Assembly (NCBI RefSeq): GCF_018555685.1
Contig: NZ_JAFLWW010000001.1
Location: forward strand, 248,001-312,000
Direction of reading: 5' to 3'
Source of the DNA: Aminobacter anthyllidis
Lineage (GTDB): Bacteria > Pseudomonadota > Alphaproteobacteria > Rhizobiales > Rhizobiaceae
Length of the DNA: 64,000 nucleotides
A program made the translations under genes and the position numbers. The notes beneath the pieces were generated by a model that was not told where the DNA came from, made no database searches, and saw only the letters and a list, made by a program, of their open reading frames with translations. Positions 34,609-43,714 of this stretch are shown here, one piece after another; the first letter of the stretch is position 1, and each line of letters starts with the position of its first letter.

Positions 34609-36069
34609 TCACTTCTTTTTCTTGCTCGGCGCTTTGTAGTTGATGATGTCCTGGGCACGCACCCAGCCCGGCGAGCCGCGCTGAAGCTTCATCTGCGCCC
34701 GCATCGCAAAGATCTTGGCGTCCTGGTAGGCGCCGCTGTAATAATGACCGTCGGCGGTGGCAAGGTCGGCGTCGGCGACGTCGCCGAGCATGCCGTAGGC
34801 CTGGGCGAGGTAGCGGTAGCCCGAGGCGTTCTCGCGGTCGCGGTCGAGGCCCTTGCGAATTTCAACGACGGCTTTCTTGAGCGCGTCGGGCGTGCCCATG
34901 GCGAGATAGGTCTGGCCGAGCGCGATCGGCAGGATGCCCGACTTCGCCGTATCGAGCCGGACTGCCGTGGAATAGGCTTCCGCTGCCGCCGCCGGCTTGT
35001 TCGACTTCATCAGGATGTCGCCGCGCAGTTCGTGGAAATAGGCATTCTTGGGCTGCGACTTGATCAGCGCGTCGGTCTTGGTCAGCGCCGAGCGCAGGTC
35101 GCCGAACAGATAGGTCGACTGGGCGTCGCCGTAACGCGAGGCAAGCCCGTCGGTGCCGCGCAGCAGGCGTGAGGCCGCCGCCTGGCCCTGGGTGTAGGCG
35201 GCGATCTTGACGCGCATCATGTCGTGCCGCTGCTGCAGCGCCTCGGAATCCTTCTTGTCGAAAAAGGCGCTTTCACGCGCCAGCGTCTCGAGATTGGCGA
35301 TGCGCTCGCGCGGCATCGGGTGGCTGACCTGGTAGGGGTCGACACGCGCGCCCGACAGCGACAGTGCGGTCTGGAAGCGCTGGAACGTCTTGAGCATGCC
35401 TTGCGCCGATTGGCCTGTGGCATTGAGATAGGTGATCGCCGAGCGGTCGGCGGTGGTCTCCTCCGAGCGCTGGTAGCCAAGCAGGCCACGACGCGCCATT
35501 TCCGAGCCACCAGCAACGATGCCGGCACCTGCCGCGCCGAGGCCGCTGGTGTCGGTGGCAGCGCCCGCGACCATCGCACCGGCGCCAAGCAGGGCGGCGA
35601 CAATCGCCATCGTCTGGGCGCGCGCCAGCTGGTCGCGCAGGCGCTCCTGGTGGCCGCCGGCAATATGGCCGGCCTCATGCGCGATGACGCCGATGATCTC
35701 GTTCGGTGTTTCCGCCGTCATCAGGGCGCCGGTGTTGATGAACATGCGCCGGCCGGCGACGAAGGCATTGAATGCGGGGTCGTTGACGAGCACGATGTTG
35801 ATGTTCGAATTGGCGAGCCCCGCAGCCTTGAGGATCGGCCGGGCGTAGTCGCGCACCAGGGCCTCGATCTCGGCGTCGCGCACGATCGGCACGCTTTGCG
35901 CATGGGCAGCACCGGTCGAGCCGAGCGCAAGCCCGGCCGACAATGCAAGCGCGGTGACCGCGCGCGTTGATCTTGCGACGAAACGCGAAAGACTTGTGAA
36001 GCTCTGCATGGCGGGGAACACTCGTAAACGAGCCATCGGGCTGTGAAAAGGCTGGTTCAAAAAACTCAT
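34609..36069 (-). CDS. Periplasmic M48-family metalloprotease with TPRs (BepA-like)
   Basis: Protein of 486 residues. The zinc site is HEAGH (about 131-135) with a downstream EETTADRSA glutamate; the C-terminal half (about 310-470) reads as TPR repeats. This is the BepA/YfgC layout of proteases that watch over outer-membrane protein assembly. A signal sequence ends near GAAHAQS; whether translation starts at MSFLNQ or at the internal MQSFTSL (nearer the signal core) cannot be settled, since neither has a clear ribosome site. The C-terminus ends in a Lys run. The DsbA-like gene follows by 53 bases. Confidence 0.85.
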   Translation of the reverse strand: MSFLNQPFHSPMARLRVFPAMQSFTSLSRFVARSTRAVTALALSAGLALGSTGAAHAQSVPIVRDAEIEALVRDYARPILKAAGLANSNINIVLVNDPAFNAFVAGRRMFINTGALMTAETPNEIIGVIAHEAGHIAGGHQERLRDQLARAQTMAIVAALLGAGAMVAGAATDTSGLGAAGAGIVAGGSEMARRGLLGYQRSEETTADRSAITYLNATGQSAQGMLKTFQRFQTALSLSGARVDPYQVSHPMPRERIANLETLARESAFFDKKDSEALQQRHDMMRVKIAAYTQGQAAASRLLRGTDGLASRYGDAQSTYLFGDLRSALTKTDALIKSQPKNAYFHELRGDILMKSNKPAAAAEAYSTAVRLDTAKSGILPIALGQTYLAMGTPDALKKAVVEIRKGLDRDRENASGYRYLAQAYGMLGDVADADLATADGHYYSGAYQDAKIFAMRAQMKLQRGSPGWVRAQDIINYKAPSKKKK

Positions 36070-36145
36070 CAACTTGTGATCCCCATATCAATCAGGCATT
36101 TGTGCGGCACATTGCCTGGCGGGCGACAGTAGAAAGTGGACGAAA

Positions 36146-37294
36146 ATGGCGGTTGCGATTTCACGGCGCGGCGAGGTCGAGCCATTCCATGCGATGGACA
36201 TCCTGGCCGAGGCCAACAGGCTCAAGGCCTTGGGCGCGCCGGTCATTTCGATGGCGGTTGGCCAGCCCTCCGATCCGGCACCGCAGCGGGTGCGGGACGC
36301 CGCGGCCGCAGCACTCAAGGTTGGCCGCATTGGCTACACCGACGCGCTCGGACTGTTTGATCTGCGCAAGGCGATATCGGCGCATTATGCCGAACATTAC
36401 CGCATCGATGTGCCGGTTTCGCGAATCGCCGTCACCACCGGCTCGTCGGCGGCCTTCAACCTGGCATTCCTTGCCATGTTCGATGCTGGCGACCGCGTGG
36501 CGATCGCGGCCCCCGGCTATCCCGCCTACCGCAACATCATGGGCGCGCTTGGCCTCGACGTGGTCGAGATCGAACTTGAGGGTGCCGCCTATCTCCATGC
36601 CGAGCACCTGCGCGCCGCGCACGCGCAAAAGCCAGTGAAAGGCGTGCTGTTTGCCAGCCCCGCCAACCCCACCGGCGCCGTCGTGCCCGCCGGCGACCTC
36701 AAGGCGCTCGTCGACACTGCCCGCGAACTCGGAATCGCCGTGATTTCTGACGAAATCTATCACCGGCTCGCTTATGGTGCTCCCGATGTGACGGCGCTCG
36801 CCTATGACGCCGACGTCACCGTCATCAACTCGTTTTCCAAATATTACTGCATGACCGGTTGGCGCATCGGCTGGATGGTCCTGCCCGAGCGGCTGGTCCG
36901 GCCGGTGGAGCGCATCGCGCAATCGCTCTACATCTCGGCACCCGAGCTGTCGCAGGTCGCGGCCATCGAGGCGTTCAACGTCACCGACGAACTCGAAGTG
37001 ATCAAGGCACGCTATGCCTGGAACCGCGAGCTGCTGGCCAAGCGCTTGCCGGAACTGGGCTTCAGCTTTGCAGCGCCGATGGATGGTGCCTTCTATGCCT
37101 TCTGCGACGTCTCCCGGTTGACCAATGACAGCATGGAGTTTGCGAGCCGCATGCTGGCCGAGGCCCATGTCGCGGCGACGCCGGGCAGGGATTTCGACCC
37201 GCTCGCGGGGCATCGCTACATCAGGTTCTCCTATGCCGGCAGCCATGACGAGATGATCGAGGCGATGGACCGCCTGGAGCGCTGGCTGCGCTGA
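36146..37294 (+). CDS. PLP-dependent class I/II aminotransferase
   Basis: Fold-type I enzyme of 382 residues. The Schiff-base lysine is in NSFSKYYCMTGWR (Lys232), the Asn and Asp contacting PLP in ASPANPTGAV and SDEIYHRL, and the phosphate Arg in GWRIGW. It resembles the aspartate/aromatic aminotransferase group, but the amino-acid substrate cannot be told. It is divergent from the M48 gene with about 75 bases between the start codons. Confidence 0.85.
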   Translation: MAVAISRRGEVEPFHAMDILAEANRLKALGAPVISMAVGQPSDPAPQRVRDAAAAALKVGRIGYTDALGLFDLRKAISAHYAEHYRIDVPVSRIAVTTGSSAAFNLAFLAMFDAGDRVAIAAPGYPAYRNIMGALGLDVVEIELEGAAYLHAEHLRAAHAQKPVKGVLFASPANPTGAVVPAGDLKALVDTARELGIAVISDEIYHRLAYGAPDVTALAYDADVTVINSFSKYYCMTGWRIGWMVLPERLVRPVERIAQSLYISAPELSQVAAIEAFNVTDELEVIKARYAWNRELLAKRLPELGFSFAAPMDGAFYAFCDVSRLTNDSMEFASRMLAEAHVAATPGRDFDPLAGHRYIRFSYAGSHDEMIEAMDRLERWLR

Positions 37295-37330
37295 AAAGCA
37301 ACCGCCCCGTCGGTCGCACCAACGGGGCGG
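37294..37330 (-). terminator. Terminator of the protease operon
   Basis: Arms CCGCCCCGT (37302-37310) and ACGGGGCGG (37322-37330) with an 11-base loop are followed on the minus strand by TTGCTTTTC. It lies about 95 bases after the subtilase gene stop and abuts the convergent aminotransferase stop. Confidence 0.65.
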
Positions 37331-37423
37331 GCAGGGGCAAAGGGGAGGATGGGCTTTGCCGCCTGAGCGCCGGAATGCCGTAGCCCCCCGGCACGCATTC
37401 CGACATGAGTTCCACTCTCTCGG

Positions 37424-39100
37424 TCAGGGCGCGAGTATTGCTGCGACCGCCTTGCCGGCATCGAGCAGGCCAGCGCCGAAGAAATAGGTCTTGCCCTTCG
37501 CCGGTTCGTTATCCGCGTTCATCGGATCCTGCGTCAGCGGGGTCGTGCCTGGCTTGACCGAAGCGTTCTGGTCGCAGGCGGCGATGAGGTTGGCCTTGGA
37601 TGTCAGGCCGTCCAGTTTCGCGTTAGCGCCAAGCTTGGCCTTGTGGGCGCGTGCGGTGAGGGCTGCCACGCCCGCCACAAGGGCGGCCGCGCCGGAGGTG
37701 CCGCCGAAGGTGGTGTAGTAGCCGCCGCCGATGCCCTGGTTGTCGAGCGGCGGCAGGATCGACGAATAGGGATCGGAACCGCCGGCATAGCCGAACGTGC
37801 CGGGCAGGTCGGTGGTCAGCAGCGAGAAATGGCTGTGCGGAACAACCTTGCCTTTGCCTGGATGGTAGTAGTGCTGGTCGACCATCGGGTCGGTCCGGTC
37901 GACGCGCAACTGGTGCCGGTTGTAGATCTCGAAGTCGTCCGAGGGTGCGACGAGCGTGAGCTTGGCGCCGTAGTTGCTGTAGCCGGAGCGGTAGCCATGC
38001 GGCGTCACCGCGCCGACAGCGACGATACCGTTGTTGGCGGCGGCGAGATTGGCCGGATAGATCAGCTGGCTTTCACCGTCGTTGCCGGCCGCGCAGATAA
38101 CAGGCACCTTGCGGCTGATGGCGACGATGAGCTTGGCCAGGGTGTTCCAGGCAACTTCGCGGTTGCCGGTCTTGCCGACCGCATGCGGCCTGATCTCGCT
38201 TGCCGGCGGCGTCGCCTCCTCGAGTCGGGCAAACAGGTCGGCGCGCTCCCAGTTTGCGCGGTCGTCGAGATCCTGCGACAGCTCCGACTTGGCGTTCAGC
38301 ACGCTGCGCACGGGGTCCGGGATGCCCCGTGGCAACAGGATGACGTCGGCGCCATTGGCGAAGGCATAGAGGAATGCGGCGATGAACTGGTCCGGCTGCT
38401 GCTCGAAGCCGGTCCTGATCGAGATCAGCCGCGACAGCGGGTCGACACCGAAATAGGGCAGCATGTTGCGGTTGGGGTTCGGCGCGGCACTGCCGTCGTC
38501 GGCGATCAGCACATCGGGCAGGGCAACCGCCGGGTTGGGCGCAACTGTTGCCGCGGGTTCGCCGACGACGAGGCCGGCAACGGCGGTGCCGTGGCTGCCA
38601 AAGGTCTCGTCGCCCTCGATCAGCGTATGCAACACGCCTTCCGATGCCGTGAGTTCGGCGACCAGGCTGCCGAGATAGGCCGTCTCGGGGCCGGTCAGGT
38701 TGAGCGTGCCCAGCCCCGCGGTGGAAATGCCGGTGAAGAAGGCGGCCTTGACCTCCGGGTCGTAGGGGCTGGCGGCAGGGGCGGCGACGTATTTGGCGCC
38801 ATAGGGATGGCTCACCAGGTCGATCGACTTCACCGCGTCGAGCCGGCTCTTGAGGTTGGGATGGCTGCGGCTGACGCCGACGTCGATCAGGGCGACGGTC
38901 GCCGGAGCCGTCGCCGTCGGGAAGGCCTCGGTGATCGTGTCCCAGACGGTGCCGTTGATGGTGGGCGAGGAATAGTCGACCTCGCCGCCCGGGGTCAGCG
39001 GCCCGAAGGTGGCATCGATCACGCCAAGCGCCGCAAGGTGCCAGAGGTAGTAGTAGGACTGAGGGTGCTGGAAGGAGAACTGCTGATTGCCGTTTGCCAT
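37424..39100 (-). CDS. Leaderless subtilisin-like (S8) serine protease
   Basis: Protein of 558 residues with an S8 catalytic triad: Asp73 (VALIDVGVSRSHP), His170 (GSHGTAVAGLV) and Ser469 (FGGTSGAAALVAGVAAL), plus the oxyanion Asn in CAAGNDGE. Long insertions separate Asp from His (about 97 residues) and Asn from Ser. No signal peptide, pro-domain or membrane helix is visible: the N-terminus reads MANGNQQFSFQHPQSYYYLW, so it may act in the cytosol or leave by an unknown route. Third gene of an operon with the PAP2-like and regulator genes; its start is 10 bases after the PAP2 gene stop. A longer upstream frame overlaps that gene and was rejected. Confidence 0.82.
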   Translation of the reverse strand: MANGNQQFSFQHPQSYYYLWHLAALGVIDATFGPLTPGGEVDYSSPTINGTVWDTITEAFPTATAPATVALIDVGVSRSHPNLKSRLDAVKSIDLVSHPYGAKYVAAPAASPYDPEVKAAFFTGISTAGLGTLNLTGPETAYLGSLVAELTASEGVLHTLIEGDETFGSHGTAVAGLVVGEPAATVAPNPAVALPDVLIADDGSAAPNPNRNMLPYFGVDPLSRLISIRTGFEQQPDQFIAAFLYAFANGADVILLPRGIPDPVRSVLNAKSELSQDLDDRANWERADLFARLEEATPPASEIRPHAVGKTGNREVAWNTLAKLIVAISRKVPVICAAGNDGESQLIYPANLAAANNGIVAVGAVTPHGYRSGYSNYGAKLTLVAPSDDFEIYNRHQLRVDRTDPMVDQHYYHPGKGKVVPHSHFSLLTTDLPGTFGYAGGSDPYSSILPPLDNQGIGGGYYTTFGGTSGAAALVAGVAALTARAHKAKLGANAKLDGLTSKANLIAACDQNASVKPGTTPLTQDPMNADNEPAKGKTYFFGAGLLDAGKAVAAILAP

Positions 39101-39110
39101 GGTCGCCCCC

Positions 39111-40094
39111 TCAAAGCCATTCGCGCTGTGCGGCGAGATAATTCGCCATGAAAGCGTCCCTGAGATAGGGCTGGAAGCGCTGCGCCAGCGCCCGGCCGCC
39201 ATTGGTGTCGCTCGGATAGTGCAGACCGGCCCATTCGCGGTTCTCAGCGACCTTGCGGGCGATGCGCGACAGCTCCTCCGTCGCCGGGTGCTCCGGCAGG
39301 ATGGCGTTGAAGGCAAAGGCAATCGAATGGCACTGGAATGAATGGTTGCTCGGATAGGCCTGGTGCGCCGGATTGGCCAGCATCAGCCGCAGGCGCGGCT
39401 CGACCTGATTGGGCCGGGTACGGTTGAACTTGGCCTTGTAGATCAGGCCGACATATTCGCAGGCCGTCAGGATCGACTGGAACAGGCCTTCGGTCTGGTC
39501 GAAGCCGCTGATGCCGTCGATGCCGAGCGGCTTGGTGAAGTCCGAGACGTCGAGGGTGGCCTCGCGCTCGATGTCCTCCTTGCGGCGCGAGCGCTCGCGG
39601 TCGCGGGCCTGGAGCGAAAGCATGACTGTTGTTTCGAGCCGTGTGACGTCGGGGCCGGGCGGCAGCGGAATGTCGAGCTGCTCCCAGGTAAACTTGCGCG
39701 CCGCCGTAAACGCATGCGGCGAGGGCGAGGTGTGCAGGCGCCTGAGCTCGAAGGCCGGGATGAGGCTTGCCTGGGAGCCGGTGCCCGAGCCTGATTGAAG
39801 CGCGCTGCCCTTGTTCTTGTTTTTGTTTTTGTTCTTATTTTTGTTCTTGTTCTTGTTGAGCGAGGCCTTGTTGAGCACGCCGGCGCTCATCACGGCACTG
39901 GCGACGCCGGCCGACATCACCATCGCCTCGGCGCCGGAGGCGAACTTCGTTTCCAGTACGATCGGAGGCCGGTCAGTGGCAGCGCAAGGCAGCACGTCGT
40001 CGCCGGCGATCTTGAAGCGGTACTGATCGAGAAAGTGCGAAAAGCCGCCCTCAACAGGCGCGGAACTGTCGTTGCCAGACACTGAATTCCCCAT
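39111..40094 (-). CDS. Soluble PAP2/vanadium haloperoxidase-like phosphatase with Asn-Lys repeat
   Basis: Protein of 327 residues. The C-terminal part has the three PAP2-superfamily motifs: KFNRTRPNQ (about 222-230), PSNHS (about 248-252, His251) and REWAGLHYPSD (Arg286, His292, Asp296). There are no membrane helices, so it resembles the soluble vanadium haloperoxidase/acid phosphatase branch rather than lipid phosphatases. An N-terminal region without known fold ends in eight Asn-Lys pairs (about 79-94) that form a charged linker. The product could be a phosphatase or haloperoxidase; sequence alone does not decide. It is 36 bases after the regulator stop. Confidence 0.78.
   Translation of the reverse strand: MGNSVSGNDSSAPVEGGFSHFLDQYRFKIAGDDVLPCAATDRPPIVLETKFASGAEAMVMSAGVASAVMSAGVLNKASLNKNKNKNKNKNKNKNKGSALQSGSGTGSQASLIPAFELRRLHTSPSPHAFTAARKFTWEQLDIPLPPGPDVTRLETTVMLSLQARDRERSRRKEDIEREATLDVSDFTKPLGIDGISGFDQTEGLFQSILTACEYVGLIYKAKFNRTRPNQVEPRLRLMLANPAHQAYPSNHSFQCHSIAFAFNAILPEHPATEELSRIARKVAENREWAGLHYPSDTNGGRALAQRFQPYLRDAFMANYLAAQREWL
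39811..39858. repeat. Hexanucleotide tandem repeat coding for (Asn-Lys)8
   Basis: Eight 6-base units of the type TTGTTC or TTGTTT (one TTATTT, last TTGTTG) lie in a row inside the PAP2-like gene. The units keep reading frame, so gain or loss of copies would change only linker length. The silent third-base differences show the tract is somewhat old. Confidence 0.9.
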
Positions 40095-40130
40095 TTATTT
40101 GATCGAAATGTGCGGTGCTCGGCGCGTCCG

Positions 40131-41918
40131 TCATGTTTTTTTGACGCCGGCCTTGATCAGGCCGGAGATCAGATTGGCGCCGCCCTCGGTGCGCATGATG
40201 GGATAGCGGGCGTCGATCAGCGAGCTGATCGAGAAATTGGGTTCGACGACGTTCAGGCGGTCGAGCAGCGTGCGGGCCGCGCGGACGTCGCCGAGCTGGG
40301 CGTGGCTCGCCACCAGATAGCGAAGCAGCGAATTGAAGTCGGGCCGCTCGCGCAGCGCCTGCTCGCCGGCCTCGATGGCAACGCGGTGATTGCCGGCGAG
40401 CGTCGCATTGATCAGCCGCGACGTGTCGAAATAGTAGCGGTAGGGGCTGTAGGCACCGAGATGGCGCGCCCAGTTGGCAAGGCTGAGGCCCTTGTCCGGC
40501 TGGCCGGCATAGGCATGCAGCATCGAATAGAGGTCCCAGCCGAGTACCTGGGTCGGATTGGCGCGGATGGCGCGCTCGAACAGGCCCGATGCGTAGTCGT
40601 ATTCGCCAAACAGGAACGAATGCACATGGCCGACAAGCGCCAGCGTGACCGAATTGCTGGAATCGAGCTCCAGCGCCTTGCGGGCATAGTGCTGGGCCTG
40701 CTCGATGGCCACGGCGGAGTCGGAGAACCGCTGGCCGACCTGGAAGGTCATCAAGAAGGCGAGCCAGGCATAGGCCTGCGACGACGGCCGCTGGGCGATG
40801 ATGCGCCGGAGCGATGCCTCCGACATGACGAGGTCGTTGCGTGACAGCCGGAACATGGCGTTGACGGCGGCATAGAGGCTCTCTGCCTCCATGGCGTCAT
40901 CGGTCTGTTCCGAGCGCGCGATGAAGTATTTGCGCAACTCGTCCATCGCTTCATTGATGAGCTGATGAGCACCGGATGTTTCACCCGCTTCGACGGCGCG
41001 CCGTTCGAGCGTGGCACCGCCCATCCACAACAAGCTGCGATCAGCGGTACGATGAACGCTGACGCTGACATAGGCTTGGTGGGCCGAAAAGCGGTAGCGG
41101 ACCTGCATCGCAAGCGCGACCGACTCGAACGCCGCATCCGGCTCCTGCGTCGGGGAAAGATCAGGACGCGACAGGTCGCAGACTGCAAGTTCACCACCTT
41201 CGAGCAGTGATCGGACGAGCAGTTCCGCGAACATGTCGGGCAGCGATTCCGCCTCGAAGGCGTCGCCCGATATCGACGGCGGCAGAAGCGCCACCGACCA
41301 GCCGGTCCGGCCGCCGTTCAGTGGCAAGGACTTGCGGTTGCCGCCATCAGAGGAGTCCGGCCCGGGCTTCTGGCCGCGCGCGGGGATGAGGCCGTTGCTA
41401 CGCCTGTCCTTGGGGCTGACGTCGCGCTGTCCGAGCGCGCTTTCGAGCCGGCCTTGCCAGACCTGCCGCTCGAGCATCAGCCATTCCTCGAACTCGGGGT
41501 CGCCGATGTCGAGGCCTTCGAGCAGCTCCGGCCAGGATTCGAGCTCGGCCTCGTTCGGCACCGACTGGCGCGACGGGTCGAGCAGTTGCAGTGCATCGAC
41601 CGACACGCGGTTGAGATCGAGCGAGATCGTATGATTGTCCGAAATGATGATGCTGTCGGCGATCGTGCCCAATGACTTGCGTACGTCGACGAGCGCCTGC
41701 CTCAGGCTCGCCGCGGCCTGCTCCTCGCCGCGGTCGCTCCACAGCTTGTCGCGAAGCCAGATGCGTGAGCGGGCGCCGCGTGGAGCAAGCGCCAGCATGG
41801 CCACAAGCGCGCGCGACTTCTGCGCCTTGGGCGTACACGTAGCACCGCCGGCATCGGTGACGGCCAGCGCCCCGAACAAATAGATATTGCAAAGCGTACT
41901 GGCGTCGTCACCAGCCAT
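40131..41918 (-). CDS. Large transcription regulator: winged helix, TolB/FlgO-like middle, TPR end
   Basis: Protein of 595 residues. The N-terminus (about 10-110) is a winged-helix DNA-binding unit of the OmpR/SARP type (IYLFGALAVTD, KSRALVAMLALAP, WLRDKLWSDRGEEQAAASLRQALVDVRK). A middle part (about 215-345) with SVALLPPSI... LPDMFAELLVRSLL... resembles the domain linking CadC-like regulators to TPRs. The rest (about 360-590) is helical with TPR-like repeats (YASGLFERAIRANP, PDKGLSLANWARHLG). No membrane helix or phosphorylation domain. The start ATG follows GCGAAGG; a longer frame to 42092 has no better site. First gene of the operon and its likely controller. Confidence 0.8.
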   Translation of the reverse strand: MAGDDASTLCNIYLFGALAVTDAGGATCTPKAQKSRALVAMLALAPRGARSRIWLRDKLWSDRGEEQAAASLRQALVDVRKSLGTIADSIIISDNHTISLDLNRVSVDALQLLDPSRQSVPNEAELESWPELLEGLDIGDPEFEEWLMLERQVWQGRLESALGQRDVSPKDRRSNGLIPARGQKPGPDSSDGGNRKSLPLNGGRTGWSVALLPPSISGDAFEAESLPDMFAELLVRSLLEGGELAVCDLSRPDLSPTQEPDAAFESVALAMQVRYRFSAHQAYVSVSVHRTADRSLLWMGGATLERRAVEAGETSGAHQLINEAMDELRKYFIARSEQTDDAMEAESLYAAVNAMFRLSRNDLVMSEASLRRIIAQRPSSQAYAWLAFLMTFQVGQRFSDSAVAIEQAQHYARKALELDSSNSVTLALVGHVHSFLFGEYDYASGLFERAIRANPTQVLGWDLYSMLHAYAGQPDKGLSLANWARHLGAYSPYRYYFDTSRLINATLAGNHRVAIEAGEQALRERPDFNSLLRYLVASHAQLGDVRAARTLLDRLNVVEPNFSISSLIDARYPIMRTEGGANLISGLIKAGVKKT

Positions 41919-42303
41919 CGTGCGGACCTTCGCTGCAGGTCGTCCATGCCCCTGAAGAGGGTACCACAGGTCGAATCGCCCGTGGCCCTCGCAACTTGCA
42001 TCGGGATCATACAACGACATTCCGGCAAGTGCGCGTGCTTGTATGCTTTTGGCACCGGGCAAGACCTGCAGCATTCCAGCGTTCCTCACCACTCTTGCCG
42101 GAGGTGATTCCGGCCTGATTTCGGTAGGACGTTAGGGAGGCGGGGTGATTGCGGCGTGAGTGAAACGTCAAAACAGCCGTGAAATGCCGTGTGACGGGCC
42201 ACTGAGGGGGCGTACGTACTTCACGCGCCAGACGGCTCGACAATCGCCCTGGCGATCGCGATGGGCAGGCCATGCCCCGGTCGCGTCGCCAGTCCGTGAT
42301 GGT
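41919..42303. other. Intergenic region upstream of the regulator operon
   Basis: These 385 bases hold no convincing gene. They must include the promoter of the three-gene operon. I see no strong palindrome, only GC-rich sequence with scattered short inverted repeats. Confidence 0.5.
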
Positions 42304-42495
42304 TCAACGTCCCGATGAGCTGTGGCGACGGGGACCGGCGAGCTCTTTGCCAAGCGCAAGCGCTTCCTGCAGATCGGTCGCATACTTCGCCGTATCTTCG
42401 AGCCCGCCGAAGTAATTGAGGCGGATGGTTTCTCCGCGCTTGCTCATGACCACGCCGATGCTCCGCAGGCTCTCACGCACATCTGAAAATCGCAT
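42304..42495 (-). CDS. Small conserved hypothetical protein
   Basis: Protein of 63 residues, MRFSDVRESLRSIGVVMSKRGETIRLNYFGGLEDTAKYATDL, with a basic tail. The ATG has a strong GGAGAAG ribosome site 7 bases upstream, which argues for a real gene and for this start rather than an in-frame ATG 12 codons earlier. Similar short proteins occur in rhizobia without known function. No helix spans a membrane. Confidence 0.65.
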   Translation of the reverse strand: MRFSDVRESLRSIGVVMSKRGETIRLNYFGGLEDTAKYATDLQEALALGKELAGPRRHSSSGR

Positions 42496-42781
42496 ATCGC
42501 AACTTCTCCGTTTGGTGGGTTGAATGAACATTAGCGTTTGCTTGTAACAGCGCCGTGTTGACGTAGCGTGAGGGATACGTGAATCGCGGTAACAAAAGTT
42601 TCGCGGCGGGCACCACTTTATCGAAATTCAGTACATTTGGTCGCATCGCTGCACGACGACACCACGGGCACATCGTGCTGCTGATTGGCCAATGAAGGAG
42701 ACGGCATAGGTGGCGGCGCGAGCGACTTGATGTAGAACGGCGTTCCGGTTCGAGCCGGTTGAAGAGCTTGCAGGACGTGCC

Positions 42782-43714
42782 ATGCCCAGCCTCCAGGATA
42801 CGCTGAACGAGATCGTCGCCGAAATGGCTGCGCAGACTGAGCGCGGCGAGGTCGCTTCCTACATTCCCGAACTCGGCAAGGTCGATCCCGCCAAGTTCGC
42901 CATATCAGTGGTCAGGAACGACGGCGAGGTGGCTGCGGCGGGCGACGCCGACGAGCCGTTTTCGATCCAGAGCATCTCGAAGGTGTTCACGCTGGCGCTG
43001 GCGCTCGGCCGCGTCGGCGATCAGCTGTGGAACCGCGTCGGCCGCGAGCCGTCGGGCACGGCCTTCAATTCCATCGTCCAGCTCGAGCTCGAACATGGCA
43101 TTCCACGCAATCCCTTCATCAATGCCGGCGCGATCGTCGTCTCGGACGTGCTGTTGTCCGGCCACCAGCCGCGCGAGGCGATCGGCGAGGTGCTGAGCTT
43201 CATGCGCACGGTGACCGACGACGATTCGGTTATCATCGATCGCGATGTGGCCAATTCCGAGCGCGCCACCGGCTTCCGCAATTTTGCGCTGGCGAACTAT
43301 CTCAAGGGTTTCGGCAACCTGAACCACGCCCCTGAAATGACGTTGGGAGTCTATTTCCACCACTGCGCCGTCGCCATGAGCTGTCTGCAACTGGCCAATG
43401 CCGGGCGGTTCCTTGCCAATGCCGGACGGATCGAATCATCGGGCCATTCGATCGTGTCGAGTGAACGCGCGCGCCGCATCAACGCGCTGATGCTGACCTG
43501 CGGCCACTACGACGGCTCGGGCGAGTTCGCCTTCCGCGTCGGCATTCCGGGCAAGAGTGGCGTCGGCGGCGGTATCCTGGCGATCGTGCCGGGTGTGGCG
43601 TCGATCGCGGTGTGGTCGCCCGGGCTCAATGCGCGCGGCAATTCGATGCTCGGCTCGATCGCGCTGGAACGGCTGACCAAGCGGATGAACTGGTCGATCT
43701 TTGCCTCGCGCTGA
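42782..43714 (+). CDS. glsA: Glutaminase
   Basis: Cytosolic enzyme of 310 residues, the usual GlsA length, that hydrolyses glutamine to glutamate and ammonia. The beta-lactamase-like fold shows the Ser-x-x-Lys site IQSISKVF (Ser64, Lys67), [10 protein letters not shown], the Tyr-containing YFHHCAV and the [11 protein letters not shown] block near residue 256. A single-gene unit with 286 bases of upstream DNA; a role in acid resistance or nitrogen control is possible but not shown. Confidence 0.93.

Follow-up and report, generated by a model that had tools for sequence, protein, structure and literature searches.

A conserved bacterial module of TPR regulator, PAP2-fold enzyme and protease in which the enzyme carries a perfect tandem-repeat tail

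Class A non-specific acid phosphatases such as PhoN are exported enzymes with a single-bundle PAP2 fold, and the oxoanion-site motif of PAP2 enzymes is common to the vanadium haloperoxidases. AfsR-type SARP-TPR regulators and RRNPP TPR regulators join a regulator head to a TPR body. Subtilisin-fold proteases with an intact triad include intracellular and leader-processing enzymes (2xrm, EpiP 3qfh and the lanthipeptide protease 4zoq). Here, we describe a three-gene locus in a 64,000-nucleotide stretch of Aminobacter anthyllidis DNA (contig NZ_JAFLWW010000001.1, positions 248,001 to 312,000; hereafter the window) that encodes a TPR regulator, a PAP2-fold enzyme with a perfect tandem array of Asn-Lys (NK) units near its N-terminus, and an S8-family subtilase. 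Regulator, PAP2-fold enzyme and protease constitute a conserved bacterial module, a conclusion that is well supported across the genomes compared.

Each component resembles a described family and departs from it. The window enzyme shares the single-bundle PAP2 fold and the catalytic residues of class A acid phosphatases (PhoN; 7f17), but it has no hydropathy signal and is accompanied by an array and dedicated neighbours. Vanadium haloperoxidases are larger and match its fold weakly. Subtilases of the window type adopt the fold of the proteases named above and keep the triad intact, yet they have a YYYLWHL motif of their own and are encoded with an arrayed phosphatase. The module's regulators likewise pair a head with a TPR body, whereas their head varies (SARP-like, Trans_reg_C or cyclase) and their candidate ligand is the tail of the neighbouring enzyme, not a secreted peptide. 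Kaur et al. 2020 (PMC7159879) places S8-family and trypsin-like peptidases in multi-gene conflict systems, and its main text nowhere uses the terms PAP2, vanadium, tandem repeat or low complexity. Among the matches listed in the open-access literature, no paper treats a system of array-tailed phosphatase, regulator and protease, which is not proof that none exists. As far as can be told, the component families are known, and their combination and the barcode-like tail have not been described.

The linkage of the three genes is observed directly. An array, defined as a tandem repeat of at least 10 residues near the PAP2 N-terminus, is present in 86 of 102 distinct Pseudomonadota PAP2 loci. A regulator of the window's family lies nearby in all 86, and a protease in 84 (S8-type in 79, Peptidase_A4 in five), whereas 13 of the 16 array-less loci have neither partner (Fisher 2e-15 for array and regulator and 2e-13 for array and protease over the 102 loci, values that ignore relatedness). 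The other three are L048, in which the regulator is lost and the array decayed, L034 and L126. The 24 near-relative loci comprise the window, 10 loci from genomes and 13 from named contigs, with one genome represented twice; the PAP2 gene has the S8 gene next to it in every case, and the regulator is present in 23. An additional 15 loci (L172-L174 and L181-L192, four of them from the window's genus) all have array and regulator, and ten lower-scoring PAP2 matches divide into two with array (unit GGNWF), regulator and protease and eight with none of these. Since the 6.7 Mb genome of the window holds only six S8 matches, and the regulator profile finds itself and one weak match there, adjacency is not expected by chance. 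A preliminary description of this DNA, made from the sequence alone, proposed the three-gene linkage and named near-absence of adjacent homologues elsewhere as its refutation; the outcome was the opposite, since the trio is kept intact in members of the Rhizobiales and Rhodobacterales and also in a betaproteobacterium.

These counts draw on several samples. Of 297 genomes sampled at family level, 34 have a PAP2 match (E ≤ 0.001), 11 of them strong (E 2e-59 or better) and the others distant. At E ≤ 1e-10, matches occur in 87 of 397 genomes of the order sample and 62 of 398 of the phylum sample, where the PAP2 family proper makes up only the upper part of each match list. The regions fetched comprise 20 from the family sample, 47 from the order and phylum samples (chosen by score, E below about 1e-30), 12 from the class and genus, three plasmid records and the ten lower-scoring matches. 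The 102 distinct loci are 104 minus the duplicates L047 (of L032) and L192 (of L033); L047 is still in the charge-correlation and the unit-sharing and codon sets, and the near-identical pairs L035/L040, L045/window and L135/L137 were kept. In the 79-locus set, partners were counted within 3.5 kb of the PAP2 gene, and the regulators counted score at least 205 bits and lie within 2.0 kb; in later sets, partners were accepted anywhere in the stretch fetched, and the 150-bit limit was not applied. Two of 81 loci searched, L059 and L060, stand outside the counts with PAP2 below 150 bits, and both are array-less; L059, where a sequence some 2.7 kb distant weakly resembles the regulator (121 bits), would add an array-less locus with a possible regulator. 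Loci L032-L044 are enriched for NK arrays because NKNKNKNK was among the patterns used to find them, and two of the PAP2 profiles (A1 and A2) contained array columns.

The array of the window enzyme is a perfect (NK)8 repeat that the preliminary description overlooked. It falls inside residues 46-110, a segment with a predicted local distance difference test (pLDDT) score below 50 in the structure model and thus predicted to be disordered, while most of the core scores above 85. Across the 86 arrays, 3-17 identical units of 2-9 residues follow one another, and merging rotations leaves 44 different units, mostly of three residues and some of two, four, five or nine (NK, GGF, NYG, GGH, TAM, QTQ and GGNWF, for example; also NR, DAR and NAE). 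Glycine occurs in 41 of 71 arrays and a period of three in 43 of 71; among the 44 units, proline appears once and cysteine never. Such arrays are scarce in other genes, with 10 found among 1116 other open reading frames (ORFs) of at least 250 amino acids in the same stretches, namely four N runs, three antisense to arrays, one poly-T run and two short duplications. In L131 (7609-8313), the PAP2 protein opens with MTMTMTMTMTMTM, its array starting from residue 1.

The units are specific to lineages. Among the 71 arrays, 215 of 220 pairs with more than 60% core identity have the unit in common, as against 18 of 2265 pairs below that value. This identity threshold depends on the alignment: with the whole post-array alignment, 63 of 700 pairs at 30-60% identity share a unit, 48 of them NK pairs. 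Where two or three array systems were fetched from one genome, the units differ between systems in five of five cases. Codons are scrambled across the array while the protein repeat stays perfect, and neighbouring units match in codon less often than expected (lag-1 identity 0.319 versus 0.394 permuted; z -7.4, 0 of 1000 permutations as low; z -6.6 without the NK group and -5.3 with one array per unit). A perfect protein repeat over scrambled codons with low lag-1 identity therefore does not stem from recent single-unit DNA slippage, which we reject as the source of the arrays. Units two apart agree more than expected (lag-2 identity 0.432 versus 0.393 permuted, z 3.5), an alternation that could reflect either selection against DNA repeats or a relic of old two-unit duplications.

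The PAP2 enzyme scores 26.6 bits against the Pfam PAP2 model, just under the cut-off of 27.2, and has all residues of K-x6-RP, PS-x-H and R-x5-H-x3-D, which we take to be the wording of the PAP2 motif. Lys220 is present, and so are the residues named as intact in the preliminary description, Arg227-Pro228, His251, Arg286, His292 and Asp296: K220, P228, H251, R286, H292 and D296 are found in 73 of 73 aligned relatives, R227 in 72 and S249 in 71. A fold search with the structure model ranks class A acid phosphatases best (7f17, E 7.3e-9, template modelling (TM) score by target 0.76), a match in which the single helical bundle of that class is seen; vanadium haloperoxidases enter the ranking at place 31, with E values of 4.6e-3 and worse and TM scores by target no higher than 0.33. 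In the sequence search, the 7f17 acid phosphatase of Pseudomonas aeruginosa also comes first (E 2e-28), and third place among distinct sequences goes to a vanadium bromoperoxidase, 1qi9 (E 1.5e-9, just ahead of PhoN), through a short match to profile positions 251-319. Given these rankings, with 1qi9 third, we call the protein a phosphatase-like enzyme only. Its modelled fold is nearest to class A acid phosphatases, well ahead of the vanadium enzymes, and the haloperoxidase reading in the earlier label "PAP2/haloperoxidase-like" is not favoured. Hydropathy bears out that neither enzyme has an export signal: no hydrophobic N-terminal signal is seen in the S8 protein or the PAP2 protein (top 19-residue means within the first 60 windows, 1.19 and 1.51, respectively).

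In the protease, Peptidase_S8 is the sole domain found by Pfam (E 5e-18). The catalytic triad is intact, as had been stated, and aligns in 67 of 67 relatives. Features of secreted subtilases are not seen, as the triad Asp comes already at residue 73, a hydropathy signal is missing and Pfam finds no I9 prodomain. Among the relatives, S8 assignments come mainly from our own profiles; of 20 S8-type proteins given to Pfam, 15 pass the Peptidase_S8 cut-off, two fall below it (L056 and L148) and three are unmatched (L055, L168 and L171). In five loci, the S8 gene is swapped for an unrelated Peptidase_A4-family gene directly after PAP2, so that proteolysis, not one particular fold, seems to matter. 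We rejected an "S8-less" module subtype, as most such loci carry other S8 or Peptidase_A4 genes. Four array modules have related genes nearby (L055:6354-7931, L131:1690-3360, L130:3223-4668 and L171:2695-3837), three of them with sub-threshold matches to NAL1_N, a domain of a plant trypsin-like protein.

Several Pfam TPR models match the window regulator (best E 5e-5, all under the curated cut-offs), and its matches in the PDB include designed TPR proteins. The preliminary description had called it a 595-residue winged-helix/TPR regulator; its length and TPR part hold, whereas no Pfam model recognises a winged-helix or SARP part in the window protein, and Trans_reg_C is found in 6 of 53 related regulators. 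With homologues in view, we tentatively take the N-terminus to be SARP/winged-helix-like and the middle to be TolB/FlgO-like. In the 53 relatives, Pfam finds TPR_2 in 37, TPR_19 in 37, Guanylate_cyc in 15, FlgO in 10 and BTAD in two. The head thus varies over a constant TPR body, which suggests that the TPR body may do the job specific to this module.

A comparison within the window's genus links the state of the array to the regulator. The PAP2 gene is present in nine of ten genomes, eight of which have the regulator and a perfect (NK)7 or (NK)8 array, differing only by synonymous codons and one copy. The ninth, G051, keeps PAP2 and S8 genes (79-83% identical to those of the window, the S8 about 83%), has lost the regulator from the locus and carries the decayed array NKHKSKAKNKNKNR, its tail reading LNKHKSKAKNKNKNR. 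G1034 is as diverged as G051 (82% versus 81%), yet its array is perfect. Four changes in 14 positions in G051 stand against none in 112 positions of the eight genomes (Fisher p 1e-4, for one event).

We postulate, with a probability of roughly 0.4, that the three proteins form a signalling module in which the array is a private multivalent tag that the TPR regulator binds and the protease cuts off. A cytosolic enzyme of PAP2/acid-phosphatase fold would carry the disordered tail of identical units. Encoded next to it would be a regulator that combines a TPR solenoid with an N-terminal part of DNA-binding or cyclase-like type, and a cytosolic protease that is a subtilase in most modules and a Peptidase_A4-family enzyme in some. 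We infer that the TPR solenoid of the enzyme's own regulator would read the array, a repeated ligand in a repeated groove, and that this binding would hold regulator and phosphatase in a resting state until the protease cuts the tail and both are released. Newly made tailed enzyme would then end the response, and private units would stop cross-reaction between two modules in one cell. The TPR part had earlier been suggested to bind a peptide made by the protease; an array built into PAP2 is the more likely ligand than a separate protease product. We tentatively extend the proposal to a barcode code, in which a lineage-specific homogeneous tail may be read register-free by its own TPR regulator and erased by its own protease, so that several switches could work side by side in one cell; the code would change as a whole from module to module.

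A number of observations weigh against this proposal. At the level of single loci, L034 has only (NK)4, under the array threshold, L126 has a regulator with neither array nor protease, and the protease was not found in L188, which has a transposase downstream, or in L136, which stops at a contig end. The decayed array occurs in one genome and hence represents one event; elsewhere in G051, moreover, a distant homologue of the regulator (43% identity over residues 9-161) could in principle stand in. Array charge and the net charge of the TPR part are uncorrelated (rho -0.02), and electrostatic matching of array and TPR was dropped on this ground. The S8 net charge opposes the array charge (rho -0.41, p 6e-4), although the NK clade confounds this correlation. 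In pairwise identities, co-evolution of unit and partner leans slightly to the protease: with PAP2 core identity held equal, pairs that share a unit show an S8 residual of +0.017 (standard deviation 0.030) and a TPR residual of -0.007. Selection against DNA repeats is not shown, as lag-2 units share more codons and permutation does not lengthen the longest exact DNA repeat (15.5 bases observed versus 14.8 permuted; shorter than permuted in 40 of 71 arrays).

The array could instead serve mainly the neighbouring protease, as its substrate or pseudosubstrate inhibitor, with a regulator that just switches the operon on, such that a cut at any point of the array takes off the tail and either activates the enzyme or destroys it. 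This is the main rival, although a somewhat unlikely account, for which speak the protease near 84 of 86 arrays, whose family can change, the disorder of the tail in the model, and both the opposed S8 charge and the slightly more similar S8 of same-unit pairs. It does not sit well with G051, which keeps the protease although its array decayed once the regulator had gone from the locus, or with the NK, GGF and QTQ units, which share no cleavage residue. Self-association of the tail, as a polyglycine-II or collagen-like bundle or a condensate-forming segment that assembles the phosphatase, would suit the frequent glycine and the period of three; we consider it improbable, however, as NK, NR, QTQ, TAM, DAR and NAE contain no glycine, proline and cysteine are nearly or wholly missing from the units, the fold model has no structure at the array, and the constant regulator and protease neighbours would remain unexplained.

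Very improbable, in our assessment, is a role of the module in a pathway for ribosomally synthesised and post-translationally modified peptides (RiPPs), with S8 as leader peptidase. In eight of the 24 near relatives (Rhizobium-type), the trio does precede a mod_HExxH peptide hydroxylase gene and a ThiF-like gene, and L037 further encodes a radical S-adenosylmethionine (SAM) maturase and two peptides that resemble precursors and weakly match the NHLP clan. However, PAP2 is an enzyme and not a precursor, and HExxH and ThiF genes were not found in the other 16 stretches, including the window (two being short; loci from L125 onward and the rest of the window's genome were not searched); with only eight of 24 carrying these genes, the leader-peptidase reading was set aside. 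Least credible of all is a translation-level device, in which a stretch early in the enzyme gene would be translated slowly or respond to starvation. The N-terminal position of the array and the tendency of adjacent units to avoid the same codon would agree with it, yet the amino acids are fixed while codons vary, the units consist of many different amino acids, and neither a protease nor a TPR partner is predicted.

The HExxH and ThiF genes lie downstream of S8 in L035, L036, L037, L039, L040, L044, L051 and L052, and also at L172:11958-14344. The HExxH gene encodes an aKG-HExxH peptide beta-hydroxylase (TIGR04267; NCBIfam checked in three), and HExxH and ThiF-like genes are also found in R. 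johnstonii 3841, whose trio lies on pRL12 (RL_RS36040 to RL_RS36050); a Phaeobacter strain has the module as well. At L037:10764-16948, the trio is followed by an apparent RiPP cluster of a geopeptide-like radical-SAM maturase, two peptides of about 107 amino acids (NHLP-clan E 0.018 and 0.0013; ends ...GNCGCAL.GPGGVLTR..) and the HExxH protein, together with SAM decarboxylase-like, daptide-type methyltransferase-like and ThiF-like genes.

Table 1. Features of the operon in the window, and Peptidase_A4-family genes at related loci.
Feature	Coordinates	Strand	Remarks
Regulator gene	40131..41918	minus	595 aa
PAP2-fold enzyme gene	39111..40094	minus	327 aa; catalytic motif intact; probably cytosolic
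S8 subtilase gene	37424..39100	minus	558 aa; leaderless; triad Asp73/His170/Ser469; conserved N-terminal YYYLWHL motif
(Asn-Lys)8 tandem array	39810..39857	minus	PAP2 residues 80-95; AAC/AAT and AAG/AAA codons mixed
Terminator-like hairpin	37302..37330	minus	13 pairs (10 GC); downstream of S8 gene; weak
Small ORF	42307..42495	minus	63 aa; upstream of regulator gene; may not belong to module
Peptidase_A4-family genes in place of S8, directly after PAP2	L151:8583-9653; L170:6999-8051; L184:5095-6171; L186:1459-2706; L187:6935-8011		family by sequence only

The gene coordinates, start codons, minus-strand orientation and gaps of 36 and 10 bases are all as previously claimed (Table 1). The terminator-like hairpin is weak, because such sites are no commoner in the region than in shuffles (three found versus a mean of 3.9). 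Among the compared loci, the 63-aa ORF is confined to the window's clade, with 71-95% identity across six loci from five genomes, and has no Pfam match; in G051, it sits about 0.57 kb upstream of PAP2, where the regulator is gone. An accessory character of the surrounding DNA, proposed earlier, is not supported, given the PAP2 gene in nine of ten genus genomes and the matching offsets at which genes follow S8 downstream in the seven loci (six distinct genomes) of the window's clade. Beside the trio, two such genes occupy window positions 34609-37294, presumably aminotransferase-like and M48-peptidase/TPR-like, and further conserved genes follow. An Rfam search of 37000-43000 gives no match, and a promoter scan finds none. 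PADLOC defence models yield a single weak chance match (E 0.035) and no known anti-phage system, PHROGs match only the S8 protein, as a protease, and phage records return just two weak partial matches, both to one distant PAP2 query.

To our knowledge, a perfect repeat tail, a repeat-protein regulator and a protease are joined in one recognition principle in no described bacterial system. That the tail must be perfectly repetitive while nearly any small unit is allowed points to such a principle. If the proposed reading is true, these modules would supply natural pairs of repeat protein and repeat peptide, useful for the design of modular peptide binders, and an unusual case of concerted change of a whole array with scrambled codons. 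It would also give a testable function to genes that a public record lists only under the names "phosphatase PAP2 family protein", "S8 family serine peptidase" and "hypothetical protein".

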